From Terriglobales bacterium (GTDB lineage Bacteria > Acidobacteriota > Terriglobia > Bryobacterales > Bryobacteraceae), in assembly GCA_027485675.1 (NCBI GenBank), contig JAIXQP010000049.1, forward strand, positions 62,001 to 126,000: a stretch of 64,000 nt of DNA, read 5' to 3'. A program made the translations under genes and the position numbers. The notes under the pieces are model-generated. The model was not told where the DNA came from. It was given only the letters and a program-made list of their open reading frames with translations, and did no database searches. This document shows, in pieces, positions 53,959 through 62,712 of the stretch. Every line of letters starts with the position of its first letter. The stretch's first letter is position 1.

Positions 53959-55686
53959 ATGCGTCCATTGGTTTTTCTTCTTCTTGCGGTGATCGGGTAT
54001 GCGCAACCGCCGGCGGGAGGAACTCGACAGGCCGAAACGAAAGAGCCGTCTGAGCCGGGCATTCCAGTGCGGAGCCAACTTGTGAAAGACAAGTGCTCCG
54101 GTTGCCATCGCGCCGATGCGAATGGGAACCTGACGCGAATCTCCTGGGAACGAACGACGCCGGAAGGCTGGCAGCAGATCATCAAGCGGATGGTGCGGCT
54201 GAACGGTCTCCAGTTGAAGCCGGAAGAAGCGCGGGAAATAGTCAAGACTTTAAGCGAGACCCATGGCCTGGCGCCGGAAGAAGCCAAACCGGTGGCCTGG
54301 TATTGGGAGAAGCGGTATATCGACGGCGAGACGCATCCTTCCGTGGCGATCGGCGATGCGTGCGCGTCCTGCCACCCGATGGCCCAGGCCTTATCCTGGC
54401 GCCGGTCGCGGGAGGAGTGGGACCTGCTCGTCGATATGCATCGCGGATACTTCCCTGTGGTGGAAAACACCTCGTTCCGGCGGCCTTCCTACCCGGCACA
54501 GGGAGGGGGCGGCGGCGGGGCTGGAGCCGGGTCAACCCCAGGCCAATCGGCCAACCCCGCCGCCACCGGAGCGCGTCGCGGATTAGACCAGATGGTGGGA
54601 GCCGTCGAGTATCTTGCCAAGGGCAATCCGCTGCACACGCCGGAGTGGGCCGCCTGGCAGGGCTCCCGCGGCGAACCCCGGCTCGCCGGCCGTTGGCTCG
54701 TAGCGGCCGACTTGGCCGGCAAAGGCCGCTTCCTCGGCGAGATGGTGATTGCGGGTGGCGCCGGCGGCGAGTTCACGACTAAGACCACGCTCACCTCGCT
54801 CAAGACCGGCGAGAAGATCGCCCGCGAAGGCAAGGCCGTCGTCTATACCGGCTACGCCTGGCGCGGCCGCTCGACGGTGGCGGGCAAAGAAGAACGCGAA
54901 GTGATGTCCTTTTCCGCCGACCAGCTCTCCGCCGAGGGCCGCTGGTTCTGGGGCGGCTATAGCGAGTTCGGCTACGATGTCAAACTCGTCCGCGCCGGCG
55001 ATGGACCGGTGCTGCTGACGACCGGGCCGGGTGGCCTGCCGATCGGCGCGAAGGGCGCGGAGCTGAAGATCTATGGGGATAGTCTTCCGGCTGGCCTGCA
55101 ACCGGCCGAGATCAATTTAGGCCGGGGCATCACGGTGACGCAGATCGTGGCGCAGACGCCTTCGCTGTTGACCGTGAAGGTGGACGTGGCGGCCGATGCG
55201 CTGCCCGGCAAACGGCCGCTGGCGATTCGCCGGGCCACCCTGCCGGCGGCGGTTCCCGTCTATGGGGCCGTCGACTACATCAGGATCCCCCGGACCTCCC
55301 ACGCCCGGCTCGGCGGCACGACGCATCCCAAGGGTTTCTTCCAGTTTGAGGCCATCGCCTGCTCAAACGGCCTCGATGGGAAGCCGAATACGGCGGACGA
55401 TATCGCCATCGGCCCGGTGGCGGCGAAGTGGTCGATGGAGGAGTTCGCGGCCCGCATGGGGGATGACGACAAAGAGTTTGTCGGCTCCCTTTCGGCGGAT
55501 GGACTGTTCACTCCGAACGTGGAGGGGCCCAATGAGAGCCGCAAGTTCGGGACGAATAACTTCGGCGATGTCTGGGTTGTGGCGACTTACGAGGGCGGTC
55601 CGAAGCCGCTGATCGCCAAGAGTTATCTGGTGGTTTCGATTCCGCTCTATGTGCGGTGGGATCACCAGCCGGAGGTGGGACGATGA
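53959..55686 (+). CDS. qhpA: Quinohemoprotein amine dehydrogenase alpha subunit
   Basis: A 575-residue periplasmic diheme subunit of QHNDH, which passes electrons from amine oxidation at CTQ to external carriers. Signal peptide MRPLVFLLLAVIGYAQ. The N-terminal cytochrome domain has two heme sites, C46-SGC-H50 and C135-ASC-H139. The rest is three beta-rich domains, one of them Ig-like (ELKIYGDSLPAGLQPAEI...). A glycine/alanine/serine-rich insert (about 176-205) before GARRGLDQMVG makes it longer than the Paracoccus protein. GTGAGGA precedes the ATG. Its stop overlaps qhpD (ATGA). Heme sites and neighbours make the call firm. Confidence 0.95.
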   Translation: MRPLVFLLLAVIGYAQPPAGGTRQAETKEPSEPGIPVRSQLVKDKCSGCHRADANGNLTRISWERTTPEGWQQIIKRMVRLNGLQLKPEEAREIVKTLSETHGLAPEEAKPVAWYWEKRYIDGETHPSVAIGDACASCHPMAQALSWRRSREEWDLLVDMHRGYFPVVENTSFRRPSYPAQGGGGGGAGAGSTPGQSANPAATGARRGLDQMVGAVEYLAKGNPLHTPEWAAWQGSRGEPRLAGRWLVAADLAGKGRFLGEMVIAGGAGGEFTTKTTLTSLKTGEKIAREGKAVVYTGYAWRGRSTVAGKEEREVMSFSADQLSAEGRWFWGGYSEFGYDVKLVRAGDGPVLLTTGPGGLPIGAKGAELKIYGDSLPAGLQPAEINLGRGITVTQIVAQTPSLLTVKVDVAADALPGKRPLAIRRATLPAAVPVYGAVDYIRIPRTSHARLGGTTHPKGFFQFEAIACSNGLDGKPNTADDIAIGPVAAKWSMEEFAARMGDDDKEFVGSLSADGLFTPNVEGPNESRKFGTNNFGDVWVVATYEGGPKPLIAKSYLVVSIPLYVRWDHQPEVGR

Positions 55687-57134
55687 GCACGGTAGCAGAG
55701 GTGCTGTATTCGCCGGCGGAGTTCCGCCGGTTCACGGCTTCGGGAGAGGAGTTCCTTTACCTGGTGCCGAGCGGGGGGATTTTCGGCGTCAGCGCCGCCG
55801 TGCGCGATGCGCTCGACCTCCTCGCCGCGGAACCCTTGGCCGCCGGGGAGTTGCTGGCCGGGTTGGTCGCGAAGGGCTACTCGCCGGCCGACGCGGACGG
55901 CATTATCACCGAGTTATACCAGGCGCGGGTAATCCGGGATCAGACCGGCTACGCGGACCCGCCGCAGGAGGCCATCGAGGACTTCCCGCTGCAGTCGCTC
56001 GTCCTGAACCTGACCAACCAATGTAACTTGTCCTGCCAGTACTGTTATGAGTACGGCGCGGACAAAGTCGCTACCCCCGAGGGCAAGCCGAAGTTCATGG
56101 ACCAGGAGGTGGCGCGGGCCTCCGTCGACCATCTGTTCGCCTCGGCGCAGGGCCGGCGGGCCGTGCACATTACCTTCTTCGGCGGCGAAACGCTGATGAA
56201 CTTCCCGCTGCTTCAGTGGGTGGTCGAGTACGGGAAGTCCAAGGCGCGGGAGACCGGGCAGTATCTCGACTTCTCTCTCACCACCAACGGAACGCTGCTG
56301 TCGGAAGCGGTCATCGAGTTCCTCGCCGCGAACGACATCGGCGTCACCGTCTCAATGGACGGCGCCAAGGAGTCCCACGACGCCCTCCGCGTTTTTGCCA
56401 ACGGCAAAGGCAGCTATGACATCGTGGCGCCCAAAGTGAAGGCGCTCATTGCACGGCACAAAAGCCGGCCCATTGCGGCGCGCGTCACCATGACGCAGCA
56501 GGTGACCGACGTGAAGGCCATCTTCCAGCATCTCCGGCACGAACTGGGTTTCGCCGAGGTCGGCTTCGCGCCGGTCACCGCCGCGCCGGACCGGCTCTAC
56601 ACCATTCAGACCAAGAAGATGGATTCCGTGCTCGACCAGTTCCGCGAACTGGCCTACGAGTATCGCGACTATGCCGTGCAAGGCAAAGCGCACGGCTTCT
56701 CGAACGTCTCCGACACTCTGGCCGAGTTACATGCGGGAATTAATAAGTCGCATCCGTGCGGGGCGGGGTTGGGGTTAGTGGGCGTAGGCCCGAGCGGCGA
56801 CATTGCGCCCTGCCATCGCTTTGTTGACTCCGATGCGCATGCCCTCGGCAACGTGCTCGACGGCGGCCTCGACAAAGGCAAGCAGAAGGAGTTCCTGGCC
56901 AAGGGGCACATCGGTGCGAAGTACGATTGCCACTCCTGCTGGGCGCGTCCGCTGTGCGCGGGCGGCTGCCACCATGAAGCCTTCGTGCGCTACGGCGACA
57001 CGGGCCATCCGAATCTCCATTTCTGCGATTGGATTCGCGACTGGACCGCGATTTGTTTAGAGATTTACGGAGATATCGCCGTGCAGAACCCGGCGTTTCT
57101 CGACGCGTTTGAAAAACGGAAGGCACTCCAATGA
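55683..57134 (+). CDS. qhpD: Radical SAM maturase of the QHNDH gamma subunit
   Basis: A 483-residue radical-SAM/SPASM enzyme that forms the Cys-to-Asp/Glu thioether bridges within QhpC in the cytoplasm. The SAM [4Fe-4S] motif is C114-NLS-C118-QY-C121. FFGGETLMNF and LTTNGTLL follow. Auxiliary-cluster cysteines are in HPCGAGLGLVGVGPSGDIAPCH, DCHSCWARPLCAGGCHHE and FCDW. The N-terminal about 90 residues could bind the QhpC leader as a PqqD-like recognition element. It overlaps qhpA by four bases at its start and qhpC by four bases at its end, fixing it as part of the operon. Confidence 0.95.
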   Translation: MSTVAEVLYSPAEFRRFTASGEEFLYLVPSGGIFGVSAAVRDALDLLAAEPLAAGELLAGLVAKGYSPADADGIITELYQARVIRDQTGYADPPQEAIEDFPLQSLVLNLTNQCNLSCQYCYEYGADKVATPEGKPKFMDQEVARASVDHLFASAQGRRAVHITFFGGETLMNFPLLQWVVEYGKSKARETGQYLDFSLTTNGTLLSEAVIEFLAANDIGVTVSMDGAKESHDALRVFANGKGSYDIVAPKVKALIARHKSRPIAARVTMTQQVTDVKAIFQHLRHELGFAEVGFAPVTAAPDRLYTIQTKKMDSVLDQFRELAYEYRDYAVQGKAHGFSNVSDTLAELHAGINKSHPCGAGLGLVGVGPSGDIAPCHRFVDSDAHALGNVLDGGLDKGKQKEFLAKGHIGAKYDCHSCWARPLCAGGCHHEAFVRYGDTGHPNLHFCDWIRDWTAICLEIYGDIAVQNPAFLDAFEKRKALQ

Positions 57135-57478
57135 AACACCTGAAAGCGGTGAATAAGAAGGCGCGGCGGATTGAAGAGTATGTCGCCTCGGCCTATGGCG
57201 ATATCTATGGCCAGCAGGAGCGGGGCGGCGCCAAGCCGGCGCCCCGGCCGCACTACCCCATCGGCTGCTCCGTCGTGTTCTCGCCCGGCTGGGAGGTGGA
57301 CTCCGCCGGCGGCACGGCCGGCCTTTGCCAACCGGCCGAGCGCGACCTCTACGACTGTTACATCACCTGTTACTGGCCCGCCCAGGTGCCGGACCACTAC
57401 AATAACTATCCGGACTGGACTTCCAAGTGCGCCAGCGCGACGAAGGACTGGCGGGACATCGATCTGGTTTTCCCATAG
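57131..57478 (+). CDS. qhpC: Quinohemoprotein amine dehydrogenase gamma subunit (CTQ-bearing)
   Basis: A 115-residue precursor of the catalytic subunit. The modified residues keep the spacing known from the Paracoccus enzyme. Taking P40 as mature residue 1: C46(7)-E55(16), C66(27)-D72(33) and C80(41)-D88(49) are the thioether pairs, and C76(37) with W82(43) would form cysteine tryptophylquinone. The basic, helical N-terminal stretch (MKHLKAVNKKARRIEEYVAS...) is the leader read by QhpD and cut by QhpE. At up to 39 residues it is longer than the 28 known from Paracoccus, unless the mature protein starts earlier. One extra cysteine (C100) has no known role. ATG overlaps the qhpD stop. Confidence 0.96.
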   Translation: MKHLKAVNKKARRIEEYVASAYGDIYGQQERGGAKPAPRPHYPIGCSVVFSPGWEVDSAGGTAGLCQPAERDLYDCYITCYWPAQVPDHYNNYPDWTSKCASATKDWRDIDLVFP

Positions 57479-57493
57479 GACGGAGCAGGGACA

Positions 57494-58588
57494 ATGAGAG
57501 CATTCTACTGGGCGTTGGTCCTGGCCACGGCTGCCCAAGCCGCCGACCCGACGCTCGTCTACGTGGGCACCTGGCCGAAGACCCTCGCCGTTATGGAGGA
57601 AGCCTCGGGCAAGGTGATCGACCGCATCACCCTGCAAACCGACGTGGCGCGCACCCTGCTGCCGACGGCGGACCAGAAAAAGCTCGTCGTGATCACGGTG
57701 AAGGATGCCGGGATTGAGACGATCGATCTGGTCACCCGCAAAGTCGTCGACTCCTTCACGCTCGGCTCGGCGTCCAAGCGCGTCCGGATTCAGGGCGCCG
57801 TGCTGGACCCTGCCGGCAAGCTGCTCTATCTGACGATGAGCGCGGCCAACCGGCTGGTCGATCGCTTCGAGATCGAGATGCCGAAGTTTGCCGTCGTGGA
57901 CCTCGCCGCGAAGAAGATCGTCAAGACCGTGGAACTGCCCAAAGAGGTGTCGCCGAACGGGGATGGCGGACGCCGAGGCGGCGGCCTGCGCATCTCGCCC
58001 GACGGCAAGTTCCTCTGGTTCTTTCGCGAAAACATCTACATTGTCGACACGACCGACTTCAAGGTCGTCGAGACCATTCCGCTTGAAAAGCCCGACTCCT
58101 TCGACATGACCGGCATTTCGCTCAACGGCCAGGACGACCCCAACGAAGCGCCCGGCAAGATGACGGCGCTGTTCTCTTCCGAGGACCCGGTGGTGCATCG
58201 CCGCATCTTTGGCGTGGCCGAAATCGACCTGACCACCCGGAAGATTCAGTTCAGCCCCATCGGCCCCGGCGTGCCCGGCGGCGACGGGAGCCTGCGGCTT
58301 TCGCCGGACCGGAAGTTCGCCTACGGCTTCACCGTCGAAGGCGCGCAGGGAGACCGCCATTGCGAGTTCTTCGTCATCGACATGGTCTCGAAGAAGGTCG
58401 TCAATCGGGGTGAGTTTCCGGGGCGGACCCGCTTCAGCACCGGCCTGACGAGCGACGGCAAATACATCATCGTCTATGGCGCCGGCCACACGATGGAGCT
58501 CTACGACGTGAAGACGCTGAAGCTTGTGAAAGACATCGACATTGACGCGGACATGACGACGCCGCTGCTGGCGATTGTCCCGCGGTAA
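57494..58588 (+). CDS. qhpB: Quinohemoprotein amine dehydrogenase beta subunit
   Basis: A 364-residue periplasmic protein with a signal peptide (MRAFYWALVLATAAQAA) and a seven-bladed YVTN-type beta-propeller: ADPTLVYVGTWPKTLAVMEEASGKVIDRI, RISPDGKFLWFF, RLSPDRKFAYGF, LTSDGKYIIVYGAGH. In QHNDH this subunit packs against alpha and gamma and helps shape the active site. It is preceded by GGAGCAGGGAC and lies 15 bases after qhpC. Alone the fold would be nondescript; the operon position makes the assignment secure. Confidence 0.93.
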   Translation: MRAFYWALVLATAAQAADPTLVYVGTWPKTLAVMEEASGKVIDRITLQTDVARTLLPTADQKKLVVITVKDAGIETIDLVTRKVVDSFTLGSASKRVRIQGAVLDPAGKLLYLTMSAANRLVDRFEIEMPKFAVVDLAAKKIVKTVELPKEVSPNGDGGRRGGGLRISPDGKFLWFFRENIYIVDTTDFKVVETIPLEKPDSFDMTGISLNGQDDPNEAPGKMTALFSSEDPVVHRRIFGVAEIDLTTRKIQFSPIGPGVPGGDGSLRLSPDRKFAYGFTVEGAQGDRHCEFFVIDMVSKKVVNRGEFPGRTRFSTGLTSDGKYIIVYGAGHTMELYDVKTLKLVKDIDIDADMTTPLLAIVPR

Positions 58589-58591
58589 GCC

Positions 58592-59494
58592 ATGGAGGTG
58601 ACGCTGCAGGTGGGCTGCGCGGCCGAGGCCAACGCTTCGCTGGCCGAGGCGCTGGGTTGGGAACTGAGCGCGAAACTGCGGCCTCTCCTCGATTCGCTGG
58701 CTCCCTTGTTCGACGGATTGGAGGTGACCCGGACGAGCTACGGGGCCGAGTTCTGCGAACATTTGCTACCCACGCCGGAGGCGCTCCAGGCCGTCCGGGC
58801 GGCGTGCCTGCGCCCCTTCACGTTCCTGACGCCGTACGTGGGCGATGCGGGCTTGGCGAAGCTGCGGGCGCTACTGCCGGAGCTCCGGCCTGGCGACGAG
58901 GTGATCTTCAGTGACTGGGGCGTGCTGAACGTCTTGCATCGGGAGTTCCCGCACCTGGTGCCCGTACAGGGCCGGCTGCTCAATAAGAGCCTGCGCGATC
59001 CGCGCGTGATGGGCTTGTACGCCGAGGCGGGTCCGGGGCCGACGCTGACCGTGCTGCAAGGGTCGAACCTCGACAACCGGGCCTATACCGCCATGCTGCA
59101 GCGCTTCGGCGTGCAGCGGGCGGAGATCGACGGGCTGCCGCAGGGCAACGACCTGGCGGCGGCATCGATGGAGCTGACGGCATGCCTCCCCTACGGCTTC
59201 ATCAGCACCGCGCGCGTCTGCCAGGCGGCCGGACTCGGCTATCGCAAGGCGGAGAAGTTTCAACCCGCGGCGCCGTGCAAACAGGAGTGCCAAACGTTTC
59301 TGCTGGAGCACGCCTATACGAACTCGCCGTTTGAAAACCGGGACCAGCGCTTCTGGCTAAAGGGCAACTCCTACTTCTATCTCCACACCCCGGCGATGGT
59401 GAAGGCGCTTGTGCGTTCGGCGCGGGACGGAGCGCTCAAACGGCTGCACCTGCAGACGCGCCTGCCGATGCTGGCCAACGGGGTGGCCGCATGA
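58592..59494 (+). CDS. U32 peptidase-family protein, UbiV-like; proposed CTQ tryptophan hydroxylase subunit
   Basis: A 300-residue cytoplasmic TIM-barrel protein of the U32 family, close in size to E. coli UbiV (about 292). Cysteines C210, C229 and C233 (ARVC ... PCKQEC) match the UbiV pattern ending C-x3-C after an ARxC-like motif, and C55 could be the fourth ligand of a [4Fe-4S] cluster. UbiV with UbiU hydroxylates ubiquinone precursors without O2, and other U32 members hydroxylate RNA bases; none is a proven peptidase of this type. The gene starts three bases after qhpB and overlaps its U32 partner by four, inside the qhp operon where the flavin hydroxylase QhpG would be expected. Role inferred from context. 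Confidence 0.7.
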   Translation: MEVTLQVGCAAEANASLAEALGWELSAKLRPLLDSLAPLFDGLEVTRTSYGAEFCEHLLPTPEALQAVRAACLRPFTFLTPYVGDAGLAKLRALLPELRPGDEVIFSDWGVLNVLHREFPHLVPVQGRLLNKSLRDPRVMGLYAEAGPGPTLTVLQGSNLDNRAYTAMLQRFGVQRAEIDGLPQGNDLAAASMELTACLPYGFISTARVCQAAGLGYRKAEKFQPAAPCKQECQTFLLEHAYTNSPFENRDQRFWLKGNSYFYLHTPAMVKALVRSARDGALKRLHLQTRLPMLANGVAA

Positions 59495-60501
59495 AGATTC
59501 TGGCGCCGATTCGGGAGCTCGATGAGTTGGAGATGCTCCACGCCGCCGGGGCGGAGGAGTTGTTCTGTGGGTTCGTTCCGCAGGATTGGCTCGAGCGCTA
59601 CCAGGGCGCGGTGTGGCTGAACCGCCGGTCGACCAAGGGCTCTTCGCTCGAAACGCTCGGCGACATGCGGGCGTTGACGGACGCCGCGCACGCCAAGGGT
59701 CTGCCGGTGTTTGTCACCTTCAACGCGCCCTACTATACGGCCGAGCAGACGGAACTCGTCATGGATCTCGCGCAGCGGCTGAGCGAAGAGTGCGGCGTGG
59801 ACGCCTTCATCGTCAGCGATGTGAACCTGATGCTGCGGCTCAGCGAGGCGCGGCTGCACGCCGGCACGCATGTGAGTTCGGTGGCCGCGACGCTGAATTT
59901 GGAGGCGATTCGTTTCCTGCTCAACTTCGGCCCCAGCCGCGTGATTCTGCCGCGGTCGGTGACACTCGCCGAGATTGCGTGCATCAAGCAGGGCGTGGGC
60001 GACGAGTGCGAGATCGAGGTCTTCATGCTCAACGATGGCTGTGCCTTTGAAGAAGGGTTCTGCGCCACGACGCATCACCATTCCGTGGGCGCGTTCTGCA
60101 CGAGCCTCTCCGGGATGCAGACCGATTTCGAGTGGCACGGCCGGCACTTCTCCGTGCGGCGGCGGGCGTGGCTGCGGAAGAATTTGGAAGACTACCGCGA
60201 ATGGGTCTGGTATCTGAACGGCAACGGCTGCGGCTCGACGGCGAAGGGCTTGCCGTATGGCCCTTGCGGGTTGTGCGCCGTGCCGGATCTGCAGAAGATC
60301 GGCGTCGATTCGCTGAAGATCGTCGGCCGGGAGGCTTCGCCGCTCAAGAAGCTGGCCAGCGTGAAGATGGTGGCCGACATCGTGCACCGGGCGCGGCATG
60401 GGGTGCCGAAGCCGGTGGTGATCGAACGGGCGATCAGCCTGCGGCAGGCGCCCGAGCACTGCCACTCCGGCTACATGTGCTACTACAAGGTCGATGCCTG
60501 A
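59491..60501 (+). CDS. U32 peptidase-family protein, UbiU-like; proposed CTQ tryptophan hydroxylase subunit
   Basis: A 336-residue cytoplasmic U32 protein, close in size to E. coli UbiU (about 331). It opens MKILAPIRELDELEMLHAAGAEELFCGF, the usual U32 barrel start, and carries LHAGTHVSSVAATLN and SRVILPRSVTLAEI. The cluster region has C184-x6-C191, the same spacing as UbiU C169/C176, then C203 and C259/C262. Further cysteines at 247, 324 and 330 exceed what one [4Fe-4S] needs. ATG overlaps the UbiV-like gene (ATGA), and the stop overlaps qhpF by eight bases, so both U32 genes are embedded in the qhp operon. A heterodimeric O2-independent hydroxylase of the QhpC tryptophan is proposed. Confidence 0.72.
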   Translation: MKILAPIRELDELEMLHAAGAEELFCGFVPQDWLERYQGAVWLNRRSTKGSSLETLGDMRALTDAAHAKGLPVFVTFNAPYYTAEQTELVMDLAQRLSEECGVDAFIVSDVNLMLRLSEARLHAGTHVSSVAATLNLEAIRFLLNFGPSRVILPRSVTLAEIACIKQGVGDECEIEVFMLNDGCAFEEGFCATTHHHSVGAFCTSLSGMQTDFEWHGRHFSVRRRAWLRKNLEDYREWVWYLNGNGCGSTAKGLPYGPCGLCAVPDLQKIGVDSLKIVGREASPLKKLASVKMVADIVHRARHGVPKPVVIERAISLRQAPEHCHSGYMCYYKVDA

Positions 60502-62152
60502 ACCCGCTCCGGTGAACCTGCGAGAGTACCGGCGAACGCTGCCGTATCTCCGGCCCTACGCGCTGCCGCTGGCGGGGATCATTGCGCTGAGCGTCATCTC
60601 CACGGCCGCCGGTCTGCTGGGGCCGCTCGTGAATCAGCGGTTGATTGACCAGGGGCTGCTGGGCCGGGACCCCGCGGTGTTGCTCTGGATGGCGGCGGCG
60701 ATGGCGGGGTTGGCCGTGTTCGGATTTCTGACGAACGCGTGGTCGAGCTACACCTACGCCAAGGTCTCCGCGCGGGTGCTGTTCGCGATGCGGCTGACCC
60801 TCTATCAACACCTGCAACAGATCTCGCCGCGTCACCATGCGCGGGCCCGGATGGGCGATTTCATCTCGCGCTTGAACAACGACGTGGCCGAGGTGCAGCG
60901 CGTCAGCGCGGATACCCTGCTGGCTTTGCTCGCGAACGTCGTGTTCCTCGTTGGCGCTGTGGTGCTGATGGTGGGCATCAGTCCGCAGCTGTTTCTGCTG
61001 AGCATTGTGCTGCTGCCGGTGGCGCTGTGGGCCTCGCGGCGGGCGCAATACAAGCTGGCGGCGCACGTGAAGCGCATGCGGGAGCGGAGTTCGACGATCG
61101 GCAGCTTCCTGATTGAGTCGTTGACGGGATTAAGGCTAACGGTGTTAGCCAACGCGCAGCAGCGGGAGGTGGAGCGGTTCGGCAAACATAACCAGAGCTT
61201 CGTGGACGCGATGCTGGCGATGCAGATGACGAGTCTTCTGGCCGGAGCGATTCCGACCACCGCCGTGACGCTTTCGACGGCGGCCGTGTTTCTGGCCGGT
61301 GGTTGGGAGGTGCTCGAAGGGACGATGACGCTGGGCACGCTGGTGGCGTTCCTGGCCTATCACGGGCGGCTGCTCTCGCCCGTGCAGAACCTGATGTCGC
61401 TCTACGGTTCGCTTGTCACCGGCGCGGTGTCGCTACGGCGGATGTTCGAGCTACTGGAGATTCCCATCGAGGTGCAGGAGCCGGCGGAGCCCGTATCGGT
61501 GGCCGCGTGGCGAGGCGAGTTGGAGGTGGACGCGGTGACCTTCGGCTACAACGCTCCGGTGTTGCGCGGCGCTTCGCTGCGTCTCGAGGCCGGCAAGACC
61601 TACGTGCTGACGGGAGTGAGCGGAGCGGGGAAGTCGACCCTCGTCGATCTTCTCGTCCGCCTGTACGATCCCGCGGAGGGCGTCGTCCGGCTCGACGGCC
61701 ACGACCTGCGCCGGATCCCGCTCGGCGTGTTGCGGGAGCAGGTCGCCGTAATTGAGCAGACGCCGATTCTCTTTCACGGTACGGTCGGTGAGAACATCGC
61801 CTACTCGCGCCCGGGGGCTTCGCTGGCGGAGTTGGCGGCGGCCGCGCGGGCCGCAGCGTTGGAGTTGCCGCTTGAGACGGAGGTAGGCGAACGCGGCTCG
61901 GCATTGTCGGCGGGGGAGCGGCAGCGGGTGGCCATCGCGCGGGCGCTGCTGCGGGATCCTCGGGTTCTTGTGTTGGATGAACCCGTGGCGGCGCTCGATA
62001 GCGCGGCGCGGTCGGCGATTCGCGAGACGCTCGGCCGCGTGTTGGCCGGGCGCACGGGATTGATCATCTCGCACGAAGCGTTCTGGGAGGGCGGGGAGGC
62101 GCTCGAACTGGTGGACGGACGGATTCGGAAGGTGGCATGTCCATTGGGATAG
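60494..62152 (+). CDS. qhpF: ABC transporter for QhpC export
   Basis: A 552-residue half-transporter with its own ATPase. Residues about 1-310 hold six transmembrane helices of the type IV exporter fold (YAKVSARVLFAMRLTLYQHL, MGDFISRLNNDVAEVQR). The nucleotide-binding domain has GVSGAGKST, VIEQTPILFHGT (Q-loop), LSAGERQRVAIARAL (signature) and VLVLDEPVAALD. In the Paracoccus system QhpF moves the cross-linked gamma subunit to the periplasm, and the same role is expected here. No N-terminal peptidase domain is fused; the protease is encoded separately next (16-base overlap). Confidence 0.9.
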   Translation: MPEPAPVNLREYRRTLPYLRPYALPLAGIIALSVISTAAGLLGPLVNQRLIDQGLLGRDPAVLLWMAAAMAGLAVFGFLTNAWSSYTYAKVSARVLFAMRLTLYQHLQQISPRHHARARMGDFISRLNNDVAEVQRVSADTLLALLANVVFLVGAVVLMVGISPQLFLLSIVLLPVALWASRRAQYKLAAHVKRMRERSSTIGSFLIESLTGLRLTVLANAQQREVERFGKHNQSFVDAMLAMQMTSLLAGAIPTTAVTLSTAAVFLAGGWEVLEGTMTLGTLVAFLAYHGRLLSPVQNLMSLYGSLVTGAVSLRRMFELLEIPIEVQEPAEPVSVAAWRGELEVDAVTFGYNAPVLRGASLRLEAGKTYVLTGVSGAGKSTLVDLLVRLYDPAEGVVRLDGHDLRRIPLGVLREQVAVIEQTPILFHGTVGENIAYSRPGASLAELAAAARAAALELPLETEVGERGSALSAGERQRVAIARALLRDPRVLVLDEPVAALDSAARSAIRETLGRVLAGRTGLIISHEAFWEGGEALELVDGRIRKVACPLG

Positions 62153-62712
62153 CGATTGTGGATAGCGGGGTGCATCCGGGGCATCCGCATGTGCGGGATG
62201 TGGTGGCGGGGCGGAGCTTTGTTCCAGGCGAAGATCCGGAACAATACCTGGACTATCTCGGCCACGGGACGGCCGTAGCCGGGGCGATCTGCGAGAAGGG
62301 TGCCCCGTTGCGGCTCTACGTCGCGAAGGTGTTTCAACGCCGGCTGGTGACGTCGATCGAGGTGTTGCTGGCCGCGCTGGACTGGAGCCTGGAGCAGCCG
62401 GTGGCCTTCGTGAACTTGAGCCTGGCGACGCAGAACGAGGCGCATCGCGAGGCGTTTGCGCGGCGCGTGGCGGTGGCGGCGGAGCGGGGGATTCGGATCG
62501 TCTCGCCGAAGGAAGGCTTGCCGGGGAGCCTTCCGGGAGTCGTGGGGGTGACGATCGACGATACGCTGCCGCGAGACCGCTACAGCGCCGAGTTCGCCGC
62601 CTGTGGCTGGCCGCGCCCGATTCCGGGCCAGCCGCAGGAGCGGAATCTGTACGGGATCAGCTTCGCGGTCGCCAATGTCACCGGATGTCTGGCTCGCGAT
62701 CTGGCGGGGTAG
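62137..62712 (+). CDS. qhpE: Subtilisin-like protease that removes the QhpC leader
   Basis: A 191-residue minimal subtilase without signal peptide or prodomain. Catalytic residues are D9 (IVDSGV), H43 (LGHGTAVAGA) and S175 (YGISFAVANVTG). The region that normally reads AAGN, supplying the oxyanion-hole asparagine, reads IVSPKEGLPG instead, so the oxyanion hole must be built differently or the turnover is slow. Position after qhpF and absence of export signals fit the known cytoplasmic, one-substrate leader peptidase QhpE. The stop (TAG) abuts the stop of the convergent methyltransferase gene. Gene order F-E is swapped relative to Paracoccus (E-F-G). Confidence 0.88.
   Translation: MSIGIAIVDSGVHPGHPHVRDVVAGRSFVPGEDPEQYLDYLGHGTAVAGAICEKGAPLRLYVAKVFQRRLVTSIEVLLAALDWSLEQPVAFVNLSLATQNEAHREAFARRVAVAAERGIRIVSPKEGLPGSLPGVVGVTIDDTLPRDRYSAEFAACGWPRPIPGQPQERNLYGISFAVANVTGCLARDLAG

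Follow-up and report, generated by a model that had tools for sequence, protein, structure and literature searches.

The 64,000-nucleotide stretch of DNA analysed here (the window: positions 62,001 to 126,000 of contig JAIXQP010000049.1, assembly GCA_027485675.1, from a Terriglobales bacterium of the family Bryobacteraceae, phylum Acidobacteriota) carries on its plus strand, at 53959-62712, a qhp operon for an amine dehydrogenase with the protein-derived cofactor cysteine tryptophylquinone (CTQ). The gene order is qhpA-qhpD-qhpC-qhpB-U32a-U32b-qhpF-qhpE. The two genes that we call U32a and U32b, encoding proteins of the U32 type, occupy the slot taken elsewhere by qhpG, and the replacement of QhpG by this pair, which is our main subject, is well supported by the way in which the two alternatives are distributed among genomes.

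Three products of the operon score above curated family cut-offs: QhpA (53959-55686), the alpha subunit with its haem-binding domain and domains II-IV (TIGR03908, 512 bits, cut-off 274; also PF09098, PF14930, PF09099 and PF09100); QhpD (55656-57134), the radical S-adenosylmethionine (SAM)/SPASM thioether-forming maturase (TIGR03906, 598 bits, cut-off 453), which on the alternative start at an internal ATG near 55683 overlaps qhpA by 4 nt; and QhpC (57131-57478), the gamma-subunit precursor, with a leader, four cysteines for the cross-links and CTQ, and the CTQ tryptophan W82 (NF037958, 134 bits, cut-off 50). The QhpB-like beta-propeller subunit (57494-58588; TIGR03907, 58 bits, cut-off 223) and the subtilisin-like leader protease QhpE (62137-62712; NF049966, 125 bits, cut-off 165) fall below their cut-offs, yet these are the top families listed for each, and their positions fit the conserved gene order; the QhpB-like protein scores 422 bits with a B-family hidden Markov model. 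The ATP-binding cassette transporter QhpF (60494-62152; PF00664, PF00005) is the presumed exporter of matured QhpC. U32a (58592-59494; 300 residues) starts 3 nt after qhpB and overlaps U32b (59491-60501; 336 residues) by 4 nt; U32b overlaps qhpF by 8 nt, and qhpF overlaps qhpE by 16 nt. A preliminary description of this DNA had given the same gene order, the overlaps from the second U32 gene into qhpF and both protein sizes, and the open reading frames agree with it.

U32b is readily placed in the U32 superfamily, matching PF01136 at 101 bits (above cut-off) and, in profile-profile comparison with hhalign, the profiles of UbiU (99.8%) and TrhP (99.9%). Its AlphaFold2 (AF2) model, with a mean predicted local distance difference test (pLDDT) score of 84.4, has as its best match in the PDB the solved U32 protein 5d88; a phmmer search of the sequence against PDB sequences found no real match. 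In two genomes (G259 and G404), U32b is the sole PF01136 match. Residues E162, C170 and C177 of TrhP are essential for hydroxylation, and the E-x7-C-x6-C motif is needed in both TrhP and RlhA, according to the relevant part of PMC6599085; E176, C184 and C191 of U32b are equivalent to the TrhP residues, and the motif occurs in 50 of 52 U32b rows (the exceptions being L104 and the partial L105), with the same spacing in Escherichia coli UbiU (E161), TrhP (E162) and RlhA (E161). Of the UbiU ligands C169, C176, C193 and C232, the first two correspond to C184 and C191 (51/51) and the third to C203 (49/51); the candidate for the fourth, C247 (44/48), lies two columns away in the alignment, though the spacing from C184 to C247 equals that from C169 to C232. 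Another four cysteines (C259, C262, C324 and C330), which E. coli UbiU lacks, are conserved in 49-50 of 50 rows. Relatives of U32b outside qhp loci have, as judged by eye, a similar CGLC and C-x5-C pattern, so this extra four-cysteine site may be older than the link with qhp. In the U32 tree, 21 U32b rows and two such relatives form one branch (support 98-99), apart from UbiU, TrhP and RlhA. With only 72 bits against the UbiU model NF047963 (cut-off 440), U32b is therefore best regarded as a remote relative of UbiU and TrhP, and not as an orthologue of any named family: the second protein had been called UbiU-like, which holds for three of the four ligand positions and for a distant kinship, and fails as a statement of orthology. 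The U32b-like proteins found close to this branch but outside qhp (L232:7249-8208 in G990; L233:7511-8491 in G417) are encoded next to FtsJ/S4 and tetrapyrrole-methylase genes, with no U32a match in either stretch.

U32a is much more divergent. No Pfam or NCBIfam model matched it at E up to 0.01, including the UbiV model NF047965 (cut-off 275 bits), which also left the U32a proteins of L095, L097 and L098 unmatched at E up to 1. In hhalign, its profile reached 87% against TrhP (E 3.6e-6), 61% or 88.5% against U32b (depending on which was the query), 23.5% against UbiV and 17% against UbiU; five unrelated control profiles gave 0-0.6%, and the QhpG profile 0.2%. The AF2 model (mean pLDDT 86.8) has an alternating strand/helix pattern, and Foldseek found only generic TIM-barrel matches to it in the PDB, with a TM score of about 0.3. 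A further tie to U32 comes from the cysteines: C55, C210, C229 and C233 align with C39, C180, C193 and C197 of E. coli UbiV and are kept in 50/50, 51/51, 51/51 and 51/51 rows, respectively. On profile-profile comparison and cysteines together, U32a is best viewed as a very remote U32 protein that is not an orthologue of a named U32 family. The description of the first protein as UbiV-like thus stands for all four cluster cysteines, and not for recognizable orthology. The cysteine arrangements reported earlier (ARxC...C-x3-C in the first protein, C-x6-C in the second) are correct, the residues being C210-x18-C229-x3-C233 plus C55 in U32a and C184-x6-C191 in U32b, and an alignment with UbiU and UbiV yields [4Fe-4S] ligand positions in both proteins, four of four in U32a and three of four in U32b, its fourth displaced as described above.

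What, then, has become of QhpG, the flavin adenine dinucleotide (FAD)-dependent peptidyl tryptophan dihydroxylase (PDB 7CTQ) that in the system described in PMC7876137, in the sections used here, acts in the cytoplasm, where it attaches to the complex of QhpC with QhpD and takes from O2 both of the oxygens that it adds to the tryptophan? The preliminary description had noted no flavin monooxygenase in the operon, and a QhpG profile (20 sequences, including the Pseudomonas nitroreducens protein that matches 7CTQ at 515 bits) indeed found no match within the operon or across the window's final 20 kb. A location elsewhere in the host genome was rejected on the basis of a genome-wide search in which all 102 candidates were scored and the top match was a 30.5-bit fragment covering 36 profile positions; the assembly is 97% complete in 54 contigs, which leaves room for a QhpG gene in an assembly gap. 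For comparison, eight control genomes with qhpG gave scores of 277-598 bits (the profile included sequences from five of them, and none from G285, G956 or G970).

The preliminary description had suggested tabulating qhpG against paired U32 genes in qhpD/qhpC neighbourhoods, and the resulting census supports replacement. The query was QhpD, not U32, in four groups of genomes drawn evenly from the larger groups, and the neighbouring reading frames were then scored. Among 52 qhpC-bearing loci, 25 had QhpG, 24 the U32 pair, three neither and none both. In the window's phylum, 28 of 396 genomes exceeded the QhpD cut-off; 30 neighbourhoods were fetched (from the 27 other genomes above the cut-off, a second copy in G377, and the sub-cut-off G077 and G172), and with the window added and G172 removed (no qhpC found) the 30 qhpC loci comprised 23 with QhpG, four with the pair (the window, G259, G377 and G289), three with neither and none with both. 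Two of the three with neither lie at contig ends, and the third is the extra copy in G377, a genome in which the pair is present at the other copy. Among 249 genomes from the order to which Bacillus badius belongs, eight of the 14 QhpD hits scored at least 411 bits; all eight carried the pair, and QhpG was absent from their stretches. The remaining six scored 272-283 bits, and the two of these that were examined had no qhpC nearby. In the class of a Desulfuromonadales metagenome-assembled genome (MAG; 194 genomes), 11 of 12 hits had qhpC, all 11 with the pair, and the twelfth was without QhpC; in the order of a Rhodocyclaceae MAG (300 genomes), three hits comprised one pair and two QhpG. Excluded from the census are Bacillales hits of 273-275 bits (G439, G575, G608 and G548), phylum QhpD hits below 326 bits, L067 (only D and G, with no qhpC in the stretch), L155 and L156, whose stretches have no qhpC (in the L155 genome none was found genome-wide), L165 (G1150), which has no qhpC, and L077 and L078, duplicates on the same contigs as L057 and L044.

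A separate scan with a U32b alignment covered contigs of 84,980 species, prefiltered non-exhaustively by two short peptide patterns. Of the 37 loci recovered, 30 had other qhp genes in the stretch, L075 had U32b with qhpF only, and L080, L083, L084, L103, L104 and L105 had the pair without qhp genes; no stretch of the 37 had a QhpG-profile match (E up to 1e-3). The hosts were Acidobacteriota, Bacillus/Brevibacillus/Aneurinibacillus, Desulfuromonadales/Geobacter and one member of the Rhodocyclaceae, with an orphan pair in a Chloroflexota MAG. In G401 (Bryobacterales F-183), a break separates U32a from U32b and leaves A-D-C-B-U32a (L229) and U32b-F (L075) some 4 Mb apart in contig coordinates; neither half has been lost. 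In G402 and G377, D, F and E remain together with the pair, and the structural genes are found elsewhere. Of the two clusters of G377 (L044 and L065), one consists of D, C, U32a, U32b, F and E, with no A or B found, and the other of A, D, C and B only.

The QhpG profile was also run against 49 pair-bearing genomes, every candidate being scored save in five genomes with strong matches, and 43 had no match above 45 bits; a qhpG homologue regularly retained elsewhere alongside the pair, a possibility that the preliminary description had raised, is thus not what is found. Three further genomes (G402, G259 and G397) have LodB/halogenase-like matches of 146-211 bits, which we rejected as QhpG since the tree places them outside the qhp-linked groups, with one exception; this pairs with a flavoprotein of G407 (discussed below) and adjoins a LodA gene. 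One of the matches in G259 is read as LodB-like because a LodA gene adjoins it (L113:6753-9759, LodA-like then LodB-like), and that genome consequently holds a second tryptophylquinone-type system in addition to its U32-type qhp operon.

Mapped onto a 74-protein QhpD tree, the U32 label requires seven changes and the QhpG label six; after recoding (L119 as both, L157 as QhpG, and L050, L059, L067, L155, L156 and L165 left out), the figures are five and six. QhpG and the U32 pair have therefore been interchanged repeatedly, with at least five changes on this tree, and the QhpD of the window itself falls in a group of nine rows (support 100) of which five are QhpG-type and four U32-type. One case, G187 (QhpG) and G289 (U32) of one genus, was discarded as a simple one-gene swap, their QhpD proteins not being sisters, so that transfer of a whole operon is possible there. 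The substrate seems to have been unaffected by these exchanges: the CTQ tryptophan, the CTQ cysteine and the thioether partners (assigned to QhpC positions by what we take to be the arrangement in QHNDH, the quinohaemoprotein amine dehydrogenase) are kept in 41/41 U32-type and 29/29 QhpG-type rows, with one gap, at the first cysteine. Given that QhpC retains these residues, operons of the U32 type would be expected to require the same oxidation of tryptophan and to yield the same product.

This brings us to what the pair does. It shares with QhpG its slot in the operon and presumably its substrate, cross-linked QhpC, and we think it likely that the two proteins make up a heterodimeric iron-sulfur hydroxylase which replaces QhpG in CTQ biogenesis and hydroxylates the tryptophan without O2. 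The part of the earlier proposal that concerned replacement is supported by the alternation in 52 loci; its chemical part (hydroxylation, independence of O2 and the nature of the donor) is what we infer. In outline, QhpD would first cross-link QhpC in the cytoplasm; the pair would then probably hydroxylate the QhpC tryptophan in place of QhpG, adding one hydroxyl or both at positions C6/C7 of this CTQ precursor without O2 and with prephenate as a possible donor; finally, QhpE would cut the leader and QhpF would export the subunit. For UbiU-UbiV, PMC6747719 describes, in the part used here, a heterodimer with one [4Fe-4S] cluster in each protein and gives the four cluster ligands of UbiV; the formation of a heterodimer, the binding of clusters and the addition of both hydroxyls by our pair would follow if the likeness extends so far. 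A review (PMC11574389, relevant section) derives the ubiquinone hydroxyl from prephenate and allows that other U32 enzymes may share this source, for which it gives direct evidence as lacking. The proposed independence of O2 rests on analogy with UbiU-UbiV and fits the use of the pair in 11 of 11 loci found in the Desulfuromonadales class. Desulfuromonadales are mostly strict anaerobes. In its fullest form, the proposal is that CTQ is built entirely without O2 by a new two-protein branch of U32 iron-sulfur enzymes, one of the two with an extra four-cysteine cluster site, which dihydroxylates a protein tryptophan, perhaps with prephenate as donor; we favour this fuller version too, with distinctly less assurance and at little better than even chances.

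Several observations weigh against these views. Three of the four census groups were picked for a known U32-type locus, and the phylum group alone is free of this choice. Three of the 49 pair-bearing genomes have strong QhpG-like matches (325-502 bits), although never in one operon with the pair. One of them, G424 (the same as survey genome G116; 502 bits), has a complete QhpG-type operon (L060), its U32 pair being elsewhere (L084); for the second, G1161 (378 bits), the match is known by its profile score; and the third, G407 (325 bits), has a flavoprotein on the same contig as the pair (L086/L119), beyond the L086 stretch. That protein groups with a LodA-linked flavoprotein (support 98), and halogenases rank highest among its PDB matches, 7CTQ coming fourth; because the tree of QhpG-like proteins does not cleanly split qhp from non-qhp members, we count it as a possible exception. 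The sequence likeness of U32a to UbiV is weak (the 23.5% given above). An independent-pairs sign test on the QhpD tree gave p 0.25 with four pairs, too few to reach 0.05 (averaged over 200 pairings of four pairs, 3.0 went in opposite directions, as expected, 0.2 in the same direction, and 0.8 showed no difference), and some of the changes on the tree may represent transfer of whole operons instead of exchange of single genes. Finally, the Bacillales hosts, Bacillus badius for example, are aerobes: absence of O2 cannot by itself account for where the pair occurs, and its use in Bacillales shows that it is not confined to anaerobes.

The most serious alternative is that the pair adds only the first hydroxyl, the second oxygen and the final oxidation coming from QhpA's periplasmic c-haems, much as in MauG/LodB-type systems, which act on a 7-hydroxy-tryptophan. 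MauG, LodB and GoxB systems, which like qhp maturation make protein-derived tryptophylquinone cofactors, start from mono-hydroxy-tryptophan with haem or flavin enzymes unlike our pair, and the Discussion of PMC7876137 suggests a role for alpha-subunit haems in the last oxidation; in addition, TrhP and RlhA are linked, in each case, with a single base hydroxyl (PMC6599085, in the part cited). Against this, QhpG itself adds both oxygens (PMC7876137, as above), no other gene lying between qhpA and qhpE in the window could supply the second oxygen (a statement about this operon, no search having been made for genes recurring in other U32-type operons), and the extra four cysteines of U32b could allow more than one hydroxylation. 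We consider mono-hydroxylation unlikely, though worth keeping in mind. Less likely again is that the pair is an iron-sulfur electron-transfer or scaffold partner which helps QhpD to cross-link, with the tryptophan hydroxylated by another or a self-processing O2-dependent route. QhpG does promote cross-linking by QhpD, according to the same part of PMC7876137, so that binding to the complex may be required of a substitute too, and candidate iron-sulfur ligands are present in the pair; such a role would nevertheless leave unexplained both the alternation with QhpG and the use of the pair in all qhp loci found in the Desulfuromonadales class, and the E-x7-C-x6-C motif is the one needed for hydroxylation in TrhP and RlhA (PMC6599085). 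That the pair is a peptidase trimming QhpC or QhpA/B has in its favour the Pfam name, Peptidase_U32, and is very improbable given that the leader protease QhpE accompanies it here as well as at most U32-type loci and that characterized four-cysteine U32 relatives are tied to hydroxylation in the sections consulted of PMC6747719, PMC6599085 and PMC11574389. The notion that the pair is a regular UbiU/UbiV serving quinone-lipid synthesis, and is in the operon by chance, draws on the remote kinship of U32b with UbiU and was rejected as scarcely credible on the family-model scores, the separate branch and the Rhodocyclaceae genome G418, which has a separate long frame matching UbiU and UbiV beside its qhp pair. 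At its start this frame (L177, G418:C5:10070-11815; 667-679 residues) matches UbiU, and at its end UbiV; it is apparently a UbiU-UbiV fusion.

If the pair is indeed an O2-independent hydroxylase replacing QhpG, how does it compare with known systems? Unlike QhpG, it would owe nothing to flavin or to O2, and the U32a profile bears no resemblance to that of QhpG. With UbiU-UbiV it shares adjacent genes, paired U32 proteins of similar size, and four UbiV and three UbiU ligand positions; it differs in belonging to another U32 branch, in the extra cysteines of U32b and in a substrate presumed to be a protein. TrhP and RlhA, which act in prephenate-dependent RNA hydroxylation, share with U32b the E-x7-C-x6-C motif, and the U32a profile is closer to that of TrhP than to UbiU or UbiV, whereas our pair comprises two adjacent genes in a protein-maturation operon. 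In the portions cited of PMC6747719, PMC6599085 and PMC11574389, U32 hydroxylases act on ubiquinone precursors and RNA, and none on a protein, and the CTQ route set out in the cited sections of PMC7876137 uses O2 by way of QhpG. What is new here is a hydroxylase-type U32 pair, placed on a branch to itself and belonging to a maturation pathway already known, whose substrate is presumably a protein. A search of open-licence papers (subscription papers and preprints lay outside it) found none joining U32 with tryptophylquinone, peptidase U32 with quinohemoprotein amine dehydrogenase or with 'oxygen-independent hydroxyl', or U32 with radical SAM hydroxylation of ribosomally synthesized and post-translationally modified peptides; the Arcobacter butzleri genome paper describes a QHAmDH locus with a radical SAM gene, and U32 is absent from its main text. 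Were our reading correct, there would be a protein-modifying U32 enzyme with a small, defined and genetically linked substrate, on which the questions of U32 chemistry (the donor and the role of the clusters) could be tested with a soluble peptide and not a membrane lipid or a ribosome. It would also account for the maturation of QHNDH in Desulfuromonadales and Bacillales, opening quinoprotein amine dehydrogenases to strict anaerobes and Gram-positive bacteria and making QhpG one of two interchangeable solutions.

We draw attention lastly to some loci at the margins of the survey. The orphan U32a-U32b pairs of L083 and L084, with no qhp genes found nearby, are sisters (support 100), and both genomes carry a QhpG-like protein; it is possible that these pairs have another substrate. 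In L038-L041, qhpE has as its neighbour a gene for a short QhpG-like flavoprotein (334-351 residues), which in L039-L041 lies on the opposite strand, and these proteins form with L035 a branch of their own in the QhpG tree. L035 is itself an unannotated qhp operon on a megaplasmid of Novosphingobium sp. RL4 (NZ_CP141945), and the grouping of its QhpD with that of L038, from the window's family (support 98), suggests transfer between phyla. In L074 (150-2440), two tandem qhpB-like genes lie in one qhp operon.

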